Shown one piece after another: positions 3,208 through 64,000 of a DNA stretch of 64,000 bases. Numbering within the stretch: the first letter of the stretch is position 1; every line of letters begins with the position of its first letter. Position numbers and translations under genes: made by a program. This stretch comes from Cubamyces lactineus (taxonomy: Eukaryota > Basidiomycota > Agaricomycetes > Polyporales > Polyporaceae). The notes beneath the pieces are model-generated. The model did no database searches and was not told the origin of the DNA. It saw nothing but the letters and a program-made list of their open reading frames with translations. The DNA lies in assembly GCA_022376465.1 (NCBI GenBank), contig JACDTU010000010.1, positions 1,302,001 through 1,366,000 of the forward strand, read 5' to 3'.

Positions 3208-5406
3208 ATGCAACTGCACGTCTTCGTTGCCCTCTCGGTGGCACTCGCTGCTTCGGCTAGTCCGAGCTACTACCGGCGTGCGTCGGACTCTTTCAGCCTC
3301 CAGAACGGCGCTGATGCTTTGCAACTCAGGTGGGTACTCTTGATTTGCCACAGCCTGTCTTTCCAGAGAGGTGATCCGCTGACGCGTGTCGACAGCCAAC
3401 AATACGAGACGCTGAGCGCCGACTCGCCGTGCACTGCTGGCGAGAACGCCTGTGTGGGCGGCCAGCTTGCCAAGTGCGCAGATGGCAAGTATGAGCTTCA
3501 GCCTTGCGGGGAGGGTTTGATGTGCGTACCAACTTCTGCTTCTTCTTATCCAGTTTCCCCGCGGCGTTCCCTGTTCCTAGAGTCCTGGACTGAAATGTTC
3601 TCTTCCTTTAACAGCTGTGCGGCGTTGCCGTTGGTGGGCTCGCCCGGCACGAACGTCACCTGCACCACCGCCGCCAATCGCGATGCGCTCATCTCAGCGA
3701 CGGGCGTCGACCTGCAGGCGTTCAAGCTGAAGCTGGGCGGAGGGAAGGCGCGGCCGTTGCCTCCGCCGAAGAAAGCGCCACCCCCGCCGCCGTCGAAGCC
3801 GAAGCCGTCCCCTCCGCCGGCGAAGTCGACGAAGGTGGTCGTGCCGCCGAAGAGCACGGCGGTGCGGAGCACTACGAGCGTGATTACGCATAGCGCTAGC
3901 GCTAGCACGTCTGCGAGGAGCACGAGCACGACAAGCGCGAAGGCGAGCTCGACAACTACGAGCGCAAGCTTGGCGCAGAGTACGACTGCGAGTTCTACGG
4001 CTGTCCAGAGCTCGAGCACTGGGACAGCCAGCTCAAGCGCGACGGTCGCGACAACAAGCCAGAGCACCATCGTTAGTTCAGCATCCACCAGCCTGGCAAG
4101 TGTCAGCGCTAGTACTAGCATCAGCTCTACGGCGACGGCTCAGAGCACTAGTCTGGCTTCTGCGAGCACGACCCTATCAGCTTCTGGTATTAGCTCTAGT
4201 GTCGCAACTAGTGCTTCAACGACCAGCACAGCGGCGGTAACAACAACCTCGACGGCGGCGGCGGCCTCGACGAGCGTCGCGAGCTCTGGCTCTACCAGCG
4301 CGGCAGGCTCGACCACGAGCATTGCTACAGAATCGACCACGAGCACCGCCACGAACACCACAACGACGGCAGCTGAATCGATCACGACTACCGCTAGCAC
4401 TAGTACCGAGGATTTGACGAGCAGCGCGGCGTCTACTGGTACGACCACGACGGCTCCGGACTCCACTAGCATCGCGACCTCCACAAGCATAGCGACTTCT
4501 ACCAGCATTGAGACCTCCACAACTGTCACGACGACTAGCAGCGCTGCTACGGTGAGCGGCCTCTTCTCTTGAAAAGGGGCCGAATTGACGATTCCTACTA
4601 TGCAGTCCACGAGCACCGCTGCGACGAACGGCACGGACCCTCAGAGCTCACTCACGCTGCTTCAGTCGGTGATCGCGACCGGCTTCGCCAACGATGGACA
4701 GGATCAGTGCGTCTCTTACCACTCTAGCTCTTCATGCATATTAACCCAACCTCGCGCCTCCTCCGCAGACCGACAGCGGGCCAAGTGCCCTCCCTGACGT
4801 CCACGAACAACTTCATCAACTTCTGCGCGACGCTGCCCAACCTGCCCATCACGAACGGCATGCAGATCCAGACCGGGTCCTGCAACCCCGCGCCGATGGG
4901 GATCCTCGCGTCCACCGCGAACATGCCCTCCGCCAAGTTCCTCGAGCCCGCGAACTTCGGGACGGTCCCCGCGCTCGCGAACTTCACCGTCTCGCTCGCC
5001 GTCGCGCACCTCGCCACGGGCCACTTCACGAACGCCGCGGAAACTTACTTTGCGGCGCCGCAGGTTGTGGACGCGCAGGGCGACGTGCAGGGCCACTCGC
5101 ACGTCGTGATCGAGCAGCTGACGGACCTCGCGCAGGCGGTGCCGACGGACCCGACGAAGTTCGCGTTCTTTAAAGGGCTGAACGACGTCGCGCAGGACGG
5201 GGTGCTCAGTGTGGTCGTGCCGGGCCTCCCGGCGGGCGTGTATCGGATGGCGACGATCAACTCGGCGGCGAACCACCAGCCTGCGCTCGTTGCGGTCGCG
5301 CAGCATGGCGCGTTGGACGATATGATCTAGTGAGTCGTCGTGCGCGGGCGCGGGAGAGTGTGTTGTTGCTGACTTGGATGTCTTTCATAGCTTCACTGTT
5401 CAGTAG
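3208..5406 (+). CDS. secreted CBM19-like protein with S/T-rich linker
   Basis: Spliced exons 3208-3329, 3396-3521, 3615-4551, 4606-4706, 4769-5329 and 5391-5406 give 620 residues and keep frame at every GT-AG junction. Residues 1-17 form a signal peptide. About residues 45-110 hold a cysteine-rich segment with the pattern SPCTAGENACVGG...AKC...GK...LQPCG and a later CTTAANRDA, which resembles CBM19 chitin-binding modules. A proline/lysine run is followed by a Ser/Thr/Ala-rich stretch of about 250 residues, probably heavily O-glycosylated. The C-terminal domain (about 430-620) starts GQVPSLTSTNNFINFC and ends with GLPAGVYRMATIN and NHQPALVAVAQHG. This combination is common in secreted basidiomycete proteins, but its biochemical role is unknown to me. 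A cell-wall or chitin-associated function is inferred from the module. It is a tandem duplicate of the copy at 3-1617. Confidence 0.8.
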
Positions 5407-58679: not shown

Positions 58680-59405
58680 AACTGCACGGGTAGGGTATAC
58701 CCGACGCAGGTCCGGGTCAGGTGACTGGCGGGTTGGGTAGGGGTAGGAAGTTGGCATACCCGTGCATGACCCGTACCCGTATTGATGTACCCGTGTACCC
58801 GTATGTAGAAACTGTACTGAACGTCAGCTGAAGTGCATCAATGAACAACCGCCAGCCCGACAGTGCTTAGTGATCAGGACAAACCCGGGACGGATACTGC
58901 CAAGTCCCTGCAAGCCACGCTGGCACCTTTTTCAGCAATGGCCGTCTCCTCCCTCACATGCGTCACCGTCTCAGCACGCATACAACACGCGCGCTGTTAT
59001 GCTTGGGTCCATGGAGCACCCATGGGTTTGTTCAGCACAATCATCTCACAGATGTGGCAAAGCTTCCCGAGCTTGCAGCAGAATCACTCTGATGTCGAAT
59101 CGATGGTGGTGGGCTGGGACGCCATTGACTTGGTGCGCGCGGAGTCAGACCGAAATGCAGATTAGTTTATGTTTCCAGCAGCGTTAAATTGAGGTTTTAA
59201 TAGCAGCTGATAACATTTGTAAGGTCCGGGAAACTGGCTACATAGCTAGGTAACCCGTACCCTGTATACCCCTACCCGTACCCTACTAAGCGCCACCCGT
59301 ACCTGTAAAGATATACCCTTGCCGGGTAGCAGACCCGCGGGCTGGGTAAATGCGCGGGTAGGGTAAGGGTAGTCCTCAAATTACCCGTACCCGACCCGTG
59401 CAGTT
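58680..59405. mobile_element. 726-bp non-autonomous TIR element (MITE-like)
   Basis: A perfect 12-bp terminal inverted repeat (AACTGCACGGGT) sits at 58680-58691 and, inverted, at 59394-59405. Inside both ends are subterminal arrays of CCCGTACCC/GGGTAGGGTA motifs in opposite orientation (58685-58805 and 59245-59390). The interior has no convincing transposase frame. The right end directly abuts the LTR at 59406. An imperfect 8-bp flank similarity (ggatgtag/gaatgtac) is present but too weak to call a target-site duplication. The superfamily is uncertain; hAT-like elements are one option. Confidence 0.6.
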
Positions 59406-59583
59406 TGTTACGAATGTACAATAGGTATTGCGACGTCTCGACGAACTGGTAACGGTTTCTAGTACTTACTCTGTACGATACAAGTATGGTAGGCTCTGGG
59501 ACTCCAGCTACGATTGTATATGGCGGATTCTATGGAACAGTCTCGTATTATCTAGGATGCTCTAGGACTTTCCATGCACAGTT

Positions 59584-59643
59584 ACTTCTGCACAGTGCAC
59601 AGTCGCTTCCGCGCAGTGCACAGCGCTTCTGCACAGTACACAG
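59584..59643 (+). repeat. three tandem 19-bp repeats in U3
   Basis: Units at 59584-59602, 59605-59623 and 59625-59643 follow RCTTCYGCRCAGTRCACAG with few differences. They may be enhancer-type elements of the LTR promoter. Confidence 0.7.
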
Positions 59644-59745
59644 CAGCACTGCCACAGTGTTACTAGGTTCGACTAGCGCTGACTACTACGCACCAGAAAG
59701 TCCTTGTATACGCTAGAACGTTCCGTCTACAGGCTGGTATACATG

Positions 59746-59753
59746 TATATAAG
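59746..59753 (+). promoter_or_regulatory. TATA box of the LTR promoter
   Basis: TATATAAG, 32 bp upstream of 59778, where the sequence complementary to the PBS begins. The spacing fits a transcription start at about 59778. Confidence 0.65.
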
Positions 59754-59927
59754 AGGCGACGCCATAGAGCGACCCTCAGCTTTCAGTCTCTTCGCGAAAT
59801 ACGACTTTGGTTGCTCGTTAACTCGCTCTCAACTGCAAACACTACTACGCGCTTATCTTCGACAAGCTAGGGCTAGTAGCTGAATAGATACAAGCTCTCT
59901 ATTCATTGACGTCTTAAGGCTTGATAG

Positions 59928-60857
59928 TTTAAGAGTCACGCTCGAAAGCGTAACATTAGACTGAAAGCTTTAACCCTCCACTTGTTAAAAGTGCAGAGGC
60001 CTACGTCGGAAGACAACGACTACGAAACGCATCAGAACTCTCTCTTGCTCGTAACGTACAGAGAGACGATAGTCAATACGGAGGGAACTACACAACCCCC
60101 ATTGCGACAATCACCCAGGGTACTAGGCGGAAGGAACAAAACACTGCCGAGCTTACCACCACTCGCGATCCCGGAGAATATAGTTGCTCTCCCAAGATCG
60201 CCAGGAGGATCCCCATTCCCCTTGATAAGAGGTTTTAGCTCGACAATCCCTTACGTAGAAAGTACCAGTTCGACATCGTCGGGTCGGAGCACTCGAGTAT
60301 CGGAACAAGAACCCGCGTTTCAGAGAACAGACGAGTGGAGAGAATATAGGAATTCTCTGGCCATTCAGGCGGAATCAGGAGTAGCAATAGGCGTACCCAT
60401 TCCAACCCGAGCGAGTCCAGGAACGGATAGTTCGGATCGATCGACTCCAGGAACAAGTGTTGAAGAAGCATCCTCAACGGACGGGATATTCTATCGGAGA
60501 ACACAGCTTCCGGTGCACGCGGTCGATACACTTCGAGTTATAGCAGATAACTTGGAAGTACTAGGACAGGAAGACTTCACGAGGAGATATCACGCGACTC
60601 TCGAACGGGCGCATCGATATATAACTCAGGTCATCCAGACACTCGAATTTATTCCAAGACAAGCTGTTACGCCTCCAACGAGGGTACGGAACTTTGCGGA
60701 ATATCTTCAGAACCAGATTGACTACCTGCGAGCAAAGGTTATCAATCCGGAGAACTACGCAGATATAGACCTCGAAGAAAATCTTAGGAAATTCCGTAGT
60801 TGCCTCCGAGCTAGGGAACTACATCAGGCTTTCCTACGACAAGCACAACGTGTATGA
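59928..60857 (+). CDS. retrotransposon ORF1 without any AUG
   Basis: A 310-codon open frame between TAG at 59925-59927 and TGA at 60855-60857. It contains no methionine codon, and no ATG occurs in any frame from 59778 to 60853. Near-cognate start candidates with purine at -3 are CTG 59961 (inside the PBS) and GTG 59991. From about 59991 the product reads VQRPTSEDNDYETHQN; it is Ser/Pro/Thr-rich at first and helical at the end (RRYHATLERAHRYITQVIQT, LQNQIDYLRAKV, LRARELHQAFLRQAQRV). I do not recognise a family; an N-terminal Gag (matrix-like) role is possible. The stop overlaps the ATG of the gag ORF as ATGA. Confidence 0.65.
   Translation, partial: FKSHARKRNIRLKALTLHLLKVQRPTSEDNDYETHQNSLLLVTYRETIVNTEGTTQPPLRQSPRVLGGRNKTLPSLPPLAIPENIVALPRSPGGSPFPLIRGFSSTIPYVESTSSTSSGRSTRVSEQEPAFQRTDEWREYRNSLAIQAESGVAIGVPIPTRASPGTDSSDRSTPGTSVEEASSTDGIFYRRTQLPVHAVDTLRVIADNLEVLGQEDFTRRYHATLERAHRYITQVIQTLEFIPRQAVTPPTRVRNFAEYLQNQIDYLRAKVINPENYADIDLEENLRKFRSCLRARELHQAFLRQAQRV
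59958..59969 (+). other. primer binding site, self-priming type
   Basis: AGACTGAAAGCT lies 2 nt after the LTR and is the exact reverse complement of AGCTTTCAGTCT at 59778-59789 in the LTR, the predicted 5' end of the transcript. No tRNA-like TGG start is present. This arrangement is that of Tf1/sushi elements, in which the mRNA 5' end primes reverse transcription. Confidence 0.7.
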
Positions 60858-62758
60858 GTTCAGCTGAACCATATAGTTGTTCAAGGTTATATCATCTCTA
60901 CAACTCCGACAAAGCTCGGGACGTATACTATCGAGAAAGCGTAGACAAGTGGAATTTTTGCACCAACGAAAGGTGTCCACTTCGGTACAACACTAAGGAG
61001 GTTCCAAACGTCAAGCACGCATCGGCTTTAATCCTAACACACTCCTCACAAGAGCGGGATATTACTAGTACCCACGGACGACAACCCGCGGTAGTCAAGA
61101 AACCACTACTTGCTGGAAAAGCTACTGGTCGGATTAATAGTCCGAGAGTTGCGTCAGGATCATTTCCGACTTCAAGAGTAGGAACCCCGAAACCTCAAGA
61201 ATCCGAATCACCTAAGGAATCAGGTCCATCCTTCAAGGAGAAAGGAAAGGAGACCGAACCGTCTAAGGTAGAGGACTCGGACAAGGAGGACGAGACTTTT
61301 CGGACAACGGTCGAAGCACCTGAACCGAAAATCGAAGAAACTGTTCGGATTAAGGTCATAGTACCTGCATCGAAGACAGAAGACACTCGGATCGAGGTAG
61401 ACACACCTGAACCGAGAGAAGAGCATATTCAGACAGAGGTCGAGGAGACTAAATCTGAATTGGAGTATACTAGTCGCAGCGCAACCCCAGAATTTGTACG
61501 AAAATCAGTACCATCGTACATGTCGGGAACAGCGACAGGAGAATCCATTTCTGGAGCCCATAGGTATGCGTTCACTCCGCAAGGGCAAAGCTCTGAAGGA
61601 GGAAGGTACGGGTCTTTATTCAGTGGACCAAACCCCCAGGCAACAGCAAGTTCTGGAGGAGTTATTAATCCTTCTGGAGGTGGAGGAGGAGGCGGACCAG
61701 GTAGGCCTGGAGGACGGCCTGACCCTGAGCCTTCAGATCCCCACTCCCCAGGAGGAGGACCACCAGGACCACCGGGACCACCAGGACCAGACCCAGACCC
61801 GGAACCGCAAGAAGCTCCAGGAAATGCGCCAGGAAATGTGCCGCAAGGACAAGGGAAAGGCAAGATCAAGGACCCTGAGGTCTTCAACGGAGACCGAGAC
61901 AAAACCAGGTCCTTCCTCAATCAACTGTTCCTGTTGTTCACGGCACGGCCCCACGACTTCGTTAATGACTACACGAAGGTGGCAACGGCCCTATCCTTCA
62001 TGGAAGGGGACAATATAAACTACTGGAAGGACATCACAATTCAGCGAGCTGAAGAGGAAATTAGACCGGGAGTCTATCGAGGATTTGACTCTTGGCCGGT
62101 CTTCAAAAGGAATTTCCTGCTCGCATTTGCCCCAGTAGACGAGGTGGACGACTCTATGGTTAATCTCACGACAATACAGCTCAAGGACTACTCTTCAGTT
62201 GATGAGTTCAATGCGAGGTTCATGGATCTAGCTCTCAAGGGAAAAATTCTGGACCCAGCAGCGCAACTGGCCCTGTACAGGAATGCGCTTCCAGAATATT
62301 TACTTAAGAAGATATCCATGTCGTACCCTCCGCCGACGACCATTGAAGAGTGGATGACTAGGACTAAGGAGATCGACCATAGCTATCACCTTACGGAGAA
62401 GATTTTGGCTAATCGCAGAGGACGCAAGGCCAAAACCTCGAAGACTAGGAAGAATGTCAAGACGGTTAATATCGAGGACGACTCGCTCGATATTAACAAG
62501 CTCTCTGTCAAGGAGAGACAGGAGCTGCAAGACAAGGGACTATGTTTCCGGTGCAGGAAGCCGGGACATATTTCCAGAGACTGTCCTTCTAAACCTAAGA
62601 AGCCCGGCAAACCCGTCAGTCGGAAGGTACGACAGGTTACCGACGAGGACTTAGAGGACGAGTCTGAGGAGATCTCAGACGAAGAGGACGAAGAGGACGA
62701 AGAGGACAATATTTCTATTAACGCACTCAGGGCTACAGATTTTGAGACGGGTTTTTAG
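60854..62758 (+). CDS. gag: Gag polyprotein with zinc knuckle
   Basis: 634 residues from the first ATG of the predicted transcript. The N-terminal third is charged and low-complexity, with repeated acidic segments (EAPEPKIEETV, DTPEPREEHIQ). A Gly/Pro-rich linker follows (GGGGGGGPGRPGG, GPPGPPGPPGP). The retrotransposon gag domain spans about residues 335-490, including DPEVFNGDRDKTRSFLNQLF, WPVFKRNFLLAFAPVDEVDD and EFNARFMDLALKGKILDPAA. A CCHC zinc knuckle CFRCRKPGHISRDC lies near 62550. The tail is acidic and ends DFETGF at TAG 62756-62758, directly after a slippery heptamer. Gag forms the particle and binds element RNA. Confidence 0.92.
   Translation: MSSAEPYSCSRLYHLYNSDKARDVYYRESVDKWNFCTNERCPLRYNTKEVPNVKHASALILTHSSQERDITSTHGRQPAVVKKPLLAGKATGRINSPRVASGSFPTSRVGTPKPQESESPKESGPSFKEKGKETEPSKVEDSDKEDETFRTTVEAPEPKIEETVRIKVIVPASKTEDTRIEVDTPEPREEHIQTEVEETKSELEYTSRSATPEFVRKSVPSYMSGTATGESISGAHRYAFTPQGQSSEGGRYGSLFSGPNPQATASSGGVINPSGGGGGGGPGRPGGRPDPEPSDPHSPGGGPPGPPGPPGPDPDPEPQEAPGNAPGNVPQGQGKGKIKDPEVFNGDRDKTRSFLNQLFLLFTARPHDFVNDYTKVATALSFMEGDNINYWKDITIQRAEEEIRPGVYRGFDSWPVFKRNFLLAFAPVDEVDDSMVNLTTIQLKDYSSVDEFNARFMDLALKGKILDPAAQLALYRNALPEYLLKKISMSYPPPTTIEEWMTRTKEIDHSYHLTEKILANRRGRKAKTSKTRKNVKTVNIEDDSLDINKLSVKERQELQDKGLCFRCRKPGHISRDCPSKPKKPGKPVSRKVRQVTDEDLEDESEEISDEEDEEDEEDNISINALRATDFETGF
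62749..62755 (+). other. -1 ribosomal frameshift slippery site
   Basis: G GGT TTT in the gag frame (canonical X XXY YYZ heptamer), followed at once by the gag stop TAG. After a -1 slip, decoding continues GGG TTT TTA GGC into pol. A 6-bp stem (GGCAAG 62762-62767 with CTTGCC 62784-62789, 16-nt loop) starts 6 nt downstream. Confidence 0.75.
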
Positions 62759-64000
62759 GCAGGCAAGCAGACTCGACGCCTGACTTGCCCAAGGAACTGC
62801 ATGTAACTATTGTAACCAATACAGAGCGGAGACGCAGTGCTCTGCTGATACCCGGTTACATGCAGGTTCAGGACAAAGCCGTCGAAATCAAGGGGCTCAT
62901 CGACACTGGTGCGGATGCCGTGATCGTCAATAAAAAGATTGTGGACAAGTACAATCTTCCGACAGTCAGACTACCGAAGACTCTGACTTTCCGGAACGCG
63001 GACGATAGCGTTAATAGCATGGGAACCATTACCCATCGGGTGGAGGGGACATTTAATCTACACGGGAAGAAGCTCCCAACAAATTGGTATGTGGCCGACA
63101 TTGGGCGGGACGATGTCTTATTCGGCATGCCATGGATCCGCAAGTACAATCCTAATATCGACTGGGAAAGTGGACGCATTACTTTCAAGTCAGATATTAT
63201 CAAGAAGCAGCAGCAGATCCATAAATACCAATGCGAGCACGACCCACCCGAAGGGATGCTGTGGAATTTCCCAGTAAAACCTCTAAATCAAGATCTGGTC
63301 GTATCGTTCGTACGTGCTATACCGGACGAGGACGACGCAGACCCAGACTCCGAAAGGCTTACATTTAATCCTTCGAGGGCCATCGAGCTATGGTACCGCA
63401 AGAAGAAAATCCGAAAGATTAATAAGTCTACGGAGATCGCTATAGCAGCGAAGAAAGACCAGAAGGAGAAGACCTTGGACGAAATCCTACCTGATTTTGT
63501 AAAGGACTATCGACAGGTCTTTGAGAAAAAGGCAGCAAGTAGATTTCCGCCCTCGAGACCATGGGACCATGCTATCGAATTCAAGAAGGACTTCGACCAT
63601 CATACCAAGGGGTCTTGGAGGAAAATCTACCCTCTGACCTATACGGAACGTATAGAACTCGACAAATTCATTGCGGAGAACCTCGAGAAGGGCTACATTC
63701 GAAAATCCAAGTCTCCACTAGCCTCGCCATTTTTCTTTGTCACCAAGAAGGATGGGAGTCTTCGACCTGTTCAAGACTACAGGGCTCTTAACGAGGGGAC
63801 TATCAAAAACGCATATCCCTTGCCGCTCATCAGCGACATCATTGACCGGCTGAAAGGGGCCACAATATTCACCAAGCTCGACGTGCGAGCAGGGTACAAT
63901 AATGTTCGCATCAAAGAGGGTGATGAGTGGAAAGCTGCGTTTATAACACCCAGCGGATTGTTCGAACCGACAGTCATGTTTTTTGGTTTGTGCAACGCAC
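62755..64000 (+). CDS. pol: Pol polyprotein (protease, reverse transcriptase; partial)
   Basis: Open in the -1 frame relative to gag through to the window end, with no start codon near its beginning. The retropepsin-like protease has the active site LIDTGADAVIVNKK and a later DVLFGMPWIRKYNPNIDW block. A linker leads into the reverse transcriptase: LDKFIAENLEKGYIRKSKSP, FFFVTKKDGSLRPVQDYRAL, NAYPLPLISDI, FTKLDVRAGYNNVRIKEGDE and FITPSGLFEPTVMFFGLCNA. The window ends before the YxDD catalytic motif. RNase H and integrase, if present, lie beyond. The frame relation implies expression as a Gag-Pol fusion. Confidence 0.9.

Follow-up and report, generated by a model that had tools for sequence, protein, structure and literature searches.

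The 64,000-nt stretch of DNA analysed here (the window) contained an LTR retrotransposon on the + strand, which spanned positions 59406 to 68355 and had its 3' part beyond the window end. The element was bounded by two 550-bp LTRs (TGTTACG...CGTAACA), the 5' LTR at 59406–59955 and the 3' LTR at 67806–68355 (locus L082, outside the window). A 5-bp target-site duplication, CAGTT, was located at 59401–59405 and repeated after the 3' LTR at 68356–68360, also outside the window. The two LTRs were identical at 550 of 550 positions, and this identity, together with the CAGTT duplication, indicated a recent insertion. The gag gene (60854–62758) encoded 634 aa, in which the CCHC knuckle scored above the Pfam cut-off and Retrotrans_gag just under it. 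The heptamer GGGTTTT (62749–62755), read from the sequence and presumably a canonical -1 slippery site, stood directly before the gag TAG (62756–62758). The pol gene occupied the -1 frame, from 62746 to 64000 in the window and open to 66405 beyond it, and was composed of protease, RT, RNase H, integrase, SH3_Tf2-1, and chromodomain, with the Pfam matches RVP_2, RVT_1, RT_RNaseH, Integrase_H2C2, rve, SH3_Tf2-1, and Chromo all above the cut-off. The LTRs, the PR-RT-RH-IN order, and the integrase with a chromodomain are those of a Ty3/Gypsy chromovirus. Past pol, ahead of the 3' LTR and in the position of env, an additional ATG-started ORF of ~430 aa was observed (66476–67768 in window coordinates; loci L081/L082), and no Pfam match above the cut-off was found in the part of it that was scanned.

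The element is an intact, recent, and complete Ty3/Gypsy chromovirus of the self-priming Tf1/sushi type. Its mRNA 5' end and self-primer, AGCTTTCAGTCT (59778–59789), was assigned from the alignment of copies and from a 12-bp pairing, in the RNA fold, with the primer binding site, AGACTGAAAGCT (59958–59969), located two bases past the LTR end. An mRNA 5' end complementary to a primer binding site adjoining the LTR characterizes the Tf1/sushi type. The duplex appears to fix the transcription start at 59778, the position given in the original prediction, which was supported independently in this way. The region 59778–60030 (253 nt) beat all 200 shuffles in fold stability, with a z of -3.0. A hairpin, CCTCCACTT-loop-AAGTG-CA-GAGG, was located at 59975–59999, upstream of or overlapping the putative ORF1 start zone. 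Its stem was kept across the copies and its loop was variable, and the 66-nt piece containing it had a z of only -1.1.

The leader between the transcription start and gag (59778–60853) contained no ATG in any of the three frames of the + strand, which was confirmed by a recount; the first ATG after it was that of gag at 60854. One frame, ORF1, was open from 59928 to 60854 for 309 codons without a Met, followed by TGA (60855–60857). The frame of 310 codons reported earlier (59928–60857) was exact as an open frame with its stop, although the coding part begins later. The leader would be expected to contain 16 ATGs from base composition and 6.6–7 from dinucleotides (P = 0.0012), and the chance expectation of ~15 in the original prediction has to be lowered to nearer 7 on the latter basis. 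Among the leader trinucleotides, ATG had the lowest observed/expected ratio. The ATG gap from 59743 to 60854 (1111 nt) was the longest in the window on both strands. Gap length by itself is not proof, because composition alone is able to produce gaps of this kind: the second-longest (917 nt, 3683–4600, + strand) falls within an S/T-rich frame that is open for 323 codons. When synonymous codons were shuffled in ORF1, 4.85 ATGs were expected against none observed (P = 0.0014), and with gag/pol codon usage the expectation was 3.99 (P = 0.0042). The same test gave no departure from chance in gag (15 seen, 18.3 expected) or pol (17 seen, 16.9 expected). The His, Asp, Asn, and Tyr codons standing before G ended in C in 8 of 8 cases in ORF1, and ended in T in 8 of 26 cases in gag and 8 of 21 in pol. 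The non-coding stretch ahead of ORF1 was likewise without ATG.

In the host genome, searched at the protein level, full-length copies of ORF1 numbered at least 61, with 39 at 97–100% (family A) and 22 at 94–95% (family B), and ORF1 was free of stops in 55 of the 61. Relatives freely carrying ATGs in the leader had been named beforehand as evidence against selection. Leader ATGs were absent from all 33 distinct A places read (39 found) and all 4 B places read (22 found), 37 of 37 in total, and also from the family C copy L061 ahead of its gag ATG. The A leaders read represented 19 different yet near-identical sequences, and the A and B copies were too alike to serve as independent evidence. Family C (66–72% protein identity) served as the independent test, with 16 C-type and decayed loci read. 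The leaders of the window copy and L061 showed 196 differences and no ATG in each; 196 random differences simulated on the A leader gave a mean of 8.1 ATGs, with none of 5000 runs at zero. Ahead of the gag ATG, two ATGs each were found in L062, L063, L064, L065, L067, and L068, and one in L066, with higher counts in L069 (9; unrelated sequence in its 5' part), L070 (7), L071 (8), and L072 (4). Three were found in L073, a deleted copy, and L074, L075, and L076, in which the gag site was lost, had 0, 14, and 5, respectively. The older copies contained 3–9 or more leader ATGs. In the seven better-preserved C copies, 10 of 11 ATGs were located at positions where the majority of the seven read ACG, as C-to-T decay after insertion would give. 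The ORF1 shuffle test gave P values of 0.0005–0.0015 in the C copies, with the exception of L064 (2 ATGs; P = 0.13), and 0.016–0.07 with gag/pol codon usage (L064, 0.34), several copies reaching only 0.03–0.07. Among the C-type or decayed copies, L062, L074, and L076 carried a 30-base insertion directly after the self-primer that altered its last bases. The gag of L062 was broken off at about codon 170 by sequence that, by eye, translates like the LTR/leader of the element itself, which resembles a nested or recombinant copy.

The gag start codon overlapped the ORF1 stop in an ATGA (60854–60857), retained by the copies of families A, B, and C in which the site survived, and its context was weak, with T at -3 and A at +4. 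A frameshift from ORF1 into gag was rejected, as no X XXY YYZ heptamer was seen by eye at the junction. The ATG-free zone, which had been thought to end at the gag AUG, was free of ATG in the leader as proposed but continued inside gag, from 60857 to 61519 in all frames. The next ATG (61520–61522) is in frame with gag, encodes Met223 within VPSYMSGT, and is a possible short-Gag start. Synonymous shuffles of this gag zone gave 2.8 expected ATGs (P = 0.02), and those of ORF1 and the gag zone together gave 7.7, with none of 20000 at zero. L063, L064, L066, and L067, four of the ten C-type copies examined in this zone, had a corresponding ATG-free stretch of 582 nt up to the matching Met, and the shuffle P values were 0.05, 0.02, and 0.02 in L063, L066, and L067, respectively. 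The remaining six contained earlier ATGs or rearrangements in the zone. These patterns suggest that 61520 may act as a third scanning station leading to a short Gag that would retain the capsid and zinc knuckle; this AUG has T at -3 and is not clearly a strong stop for scanning.

The selection acting on ORF1 was estimated by the Nei-Gojobori method, with the window copy compared with eight C-type copies, which together represent a single divergence. The dN/dS was 0.35–0.38 in the ORF1 frame and 0.79–1.12 in the two other frames, and 0.29–0.41 in the N-terminal part of gag. A value near 1, which had been held in advance to speak against ORF1 as a gene, was thus not found between A and C. Comparison of the window copy with two B copies (27–28 differences) gave ORF1 values of 0.51 and 0.64 and control-frame values of 0.64–1.04, a weak and unclear signal. 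Ten database proteins matched ORF1. Four of them (P0004, P0005, P0007, and P0009) were 47–57% identical over most of ORF1 without an internal Met, and P0002, P0003, and P0006 were also without Met beyond the first. One internal Met was found in P0001 and two each in P0008 and P0010, a hypothetical protein of Cerioporus squamosus, in N-terminal parts unlike ORF1. The match to a Cerioporus protein suggests that the element probably resides in a polypore. A non-coding ORF1 was rejected because the A–C dN/dS was frame-specific and homologues exist, and judged from these comparisons ORF1 is a real gene under purifying selection, with its conserved coding part at about 60009–60854. The AlphaFold2 model had a mean pLDDT of 52.6; the first ~170 residues were of low confidence, and residues ~175–285 were reasonably confident and helical, which tentatively points to a helical C-terminal part. 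No Foldseek hit of the model in PDB or BFVD reached E ≤ 0.001, searches against PDB sequences and Pfam gave nothing convincing and no Pfam match above the cut-off, and no relative was found among viral contigs.

The frame breaks of family C located the probable ORF1 start. A one-base indel in the hairpin past the primer binding site placed the first ~22 codons of family C out of frame, behind a TAA, and conservation of the ORF1 frame set in just past the hairpin. The start is therefore most likely a non-AUG codon near 59991–60008 (+ strand), ~63–80 nt downstream of 59928, with GTG at 59991 (A at -3) and ACG at 60003 as the main near-cognate candidates. The family C frame opened with TAA AGT GCA GAG GTG ACG TTG; its near-cognates were GTG, ACG, and TTG, those of family A were GTG and ACG, and only the ACG aligned across both. 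The aligned ACG was in poor context in A, and no start codon was clearly common to A and C. Later near-cognates at 60027, 60045, and 60054 are possible starts. The first M called in P0001 aligned at the GTG of the element copies, and the first M called in the database homologues could in principle be an ATG. No AUG occurred from the transcription start to 60854 while ORF1 was conserved as a gene, and the nearest upstream ATG (59743) preceded the transcription start and was out of the ORF1 frame.

Two further families of the same genome, E (L083) and F (L084), were each read in one copy. Family E, with an RT 59% identical, had a 10-bp self-priming duplex (1256–1265/1379–1388 of the reverse complement) and a leader of 653 nt without ATG (L083 reverse complement, 1256–1908). 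Its gag frame was open for 176 codons ahead of the gag ATG, and this extension contained a conserved DK-A-LVYY-GQQVFWK block. The extension was conserved at 72–74% in four Trametes cubensis proteins (P0011–P0014), which lacked Met in the shared region ahead of that of gag. The agreement was lost near the primer binding site. The N-terminal parts of these proteins differed, in the manner expected if gene prediction had introduced splices into the frame. Family E looks like a case of non-AUG, N-extended Gag. ATG avoidance was not significant in family E (extension, 0 observed, 0.43 expected, P = 0.61; leader Markov P = 0.065), so it was rejected as statistical proof and supports the reading by layout and conservation only. 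Family F (L084, 660–2096) had an 11-bp self-priming duplex and ATGs in the leader. Its ORF1-like frame began at an ATG (1329) and was interrupted by TGA in the copy read, and a splice-acceptor-like TTAG stood directly before both this ATG and the gag ATG. The AUG-free layout is not universal, and family F, as read, is a counter-example. A stretch of the LTR of the window element itself was observed upstream in L084, at ~291.

The AUG absence, the conservation of ORF1 as a gene, and the element anatomy, which were seen directly in the sequence, are probably best explained by near-cognate initiation of ORF1 and leaky scanning to Gag on a polycistronic mRNA. The genomic mRNA would be polycistronic, with ribosomes scanning from its 5' end at 59778. 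A minority of them would initiate just past the primer binding site and hairpin, at the GTG of 59991 or the ACG of 60003, and produce a Met-free accessory protein of ~285 aa. The remaining ribosomes would scan ~1 kb without AUG, as the main route to Gag, and start at the AUG of 60854, and Gag-Pol would be made by -1 frameshifting. Scanning ribosomes would be diverted by any AUG, and purifying selection would therefore clear it from every frame of the leader and ORF1. Some reinitiation may come about through the ATGA overlap. The original prediction had proposed just such selection, with scanning to the gag AUG and a non-AUG start of ORF1, and the ORF1 shuffle (P = 0.0014) and dN/dS (0.35–0.38) argue for it.

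Reinitiation could instead be the main route to Gag, with ribosomes mostly translating the non-AUG ORF1, stopping at its TGA, and restarting at the ATGA. The stop-start overlap is of the kind seen at TURBS-type sites and persisted in families A, B, and C where the site survived, and AUGA and UAAUG couplings are described for caliciviruses, influenza B, and the non-LTR element SART1 (PMC5902531, PMC5972666). However, TGGGA, the UGGGA core of TURBS, was absent from 60750–60857, and the whole Gag supply would hang on a non-AUG start. Such coupling also leaves unexplained the lack of ATG in the preceding leader and the avoidance of out-of-frame ATGs within ORF1. Out-of-frame ATGs would harm scanning rather than elongating ribosomes, so their avoidance favours leaky scanning over pure reinitiation, and we infer that most Gag-making ribosomes scanned through ORF1, past a weak non-AUG start. 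Reinitiation as the main route is unlikely. A frame without a protein, left open purely by gag-driven selection against upstream AUGs, would account for the ATG-free non-coding part ahead of ORF1, and leaders are generally constrained to avoid AUG. Purifying selection specific to the ORF1 frame, as seen between A and C, the 47–57% homologues across most of ORF1, and the 55 of 61 open copies make this the least probable of the alternatives.

ORF1 and Gag might also be translated from differently spliced or started mRNAs, as seems to be the case in family F, with the ORF1 AUG supplied from outside. This would fit the TTAG acceptor-like sites before both ATGs of L084, the Trametes cubensis and Cerioporus proteins that enter such frames from unrelated N-terminal parts as if spliced by gene callers, and 11 branch-plus-acceptor-like pairs in the leader and early gag, up to 61500. 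A search for donors of the form GTRNGT found none in 59778–61500, which also speaks against an intron removing ORF1, an objection foreseen at the outset. The ban on ATG would be pointless if ORF1 were spliced over, and the ATG at 59743 lies before the transcription start in another frame than ORF1; separate mRNAs are very unlikely, only slightly less so than the protein-less frame. Internal entry or shunting across the structured leader, landing at the ORF1 start, would be in keeping with the strong fold of 59778–60030 (z -3.0), which ends just ahead of the start zone. Self-priming already accounts for this fold, downstream entry would need no ATG-free first 200 bases, and shunting as described uses an AUG short ORF before the stem (PMC5902531), which the leader lacks. 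We regard this route as improbable, if less so than separate mRNAs. Near-cognate initiation with leaky scanning remains the preferred reading.

A wider reading, tentative and at somewhat short of an even chance, is that a polypore lineage of self-priming chromoviruses uses a scanning cascade from ORF1 (non-AUG) to long Gag (weak AUG) to short Gag (61520), with Pol made by -1 frameshifting, and that in the sister family E an AUG-free leader gives rise to an N-extended Gag with a non-AUG start. The programme would then have evolved in LTR retrotransposons in parallel to the tungro viruses and badnaviruses. If true, the expression strategy of rice tungro bacilliform virus (RTBV) would operate in a fungal Ty3 element, with a conserved AUG-less gene and a kilobase from which AUG is kept out in all three frames. 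The failure of gene callers to find such ORFs, or to splice them correctly, would be accounted for. The element would also provide a natural system, present in high copy in a fungus, in which to study near-cognate initiation and leaky scanning over long distances, and the purpose of avoiding AUG could be tested directly.

LTR retrotransposons are generally held to use one AUG with frameshifting or readthrough. The plant Ogre/Tat elements (Ty3/Gypsy) have an ORF1 between LTR and gag. The gammaretroviral glyco-Gag is an N-extended Gag started upstream at a non-AUG codon, CUG; the extended Gag proposed for family E resembles it, whereas ORF1 of family A encodes a distinct protein outside the gag frame and does not extend Gag. 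No report of an AUG-free leader or a non-AUG ORF in a Ty3 element was found among the open-licence papers listed in the literature searches, judged by title and the start of the abstract. The self-priming primer binding site, pol domains, SH3_Tf2-1, and chromodomain are shared with the fungal Tf1/sushi chromoviruses, which differ from the present element with its AUG-less ORF1 ahead of gag and a separate ORF past pol. LTR elements are described as usually encoding two ORFs, gag and pol (PMC3248453). The Drosophila MDG1 group is likewise described with accessory ORFs between LTR and gag, sORF1 and sORF2, with low non-synonymous/synonymous rates (PMC11952523). In contrast to the present element, no AUG-free leader or non-AUG start is described in the available part of that report, in which the search used canonical start codons.

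The closest parallel in expression is RTBV and the badnaviruses (Caulimoviridae). In RTBV, the AUU start of ORF I is described as used by ~10% of ribosomes, ORFs I and II are without internal AUG over about 900 nt, and the next AUGs are reached by leaky scanning (PMC5902531). An ORF without internal AUG ahead of the main ORF is also found here, and a non-AUG start of the first ORF and leaky scanning are proposed for the element. ORF1 had no convincing match in searches by profile or by structure. Unlike the long pararetroviral leader with its AUG short ORFs and shunt stem, the leader here has no ATG, and with it no short ORF before the stem of the kind used in RTBV-type shunting, and the element has LTRs and an integrase. 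The element would work like the RTBV leader but lacks its shunt stage, and it falls outside that virus family.
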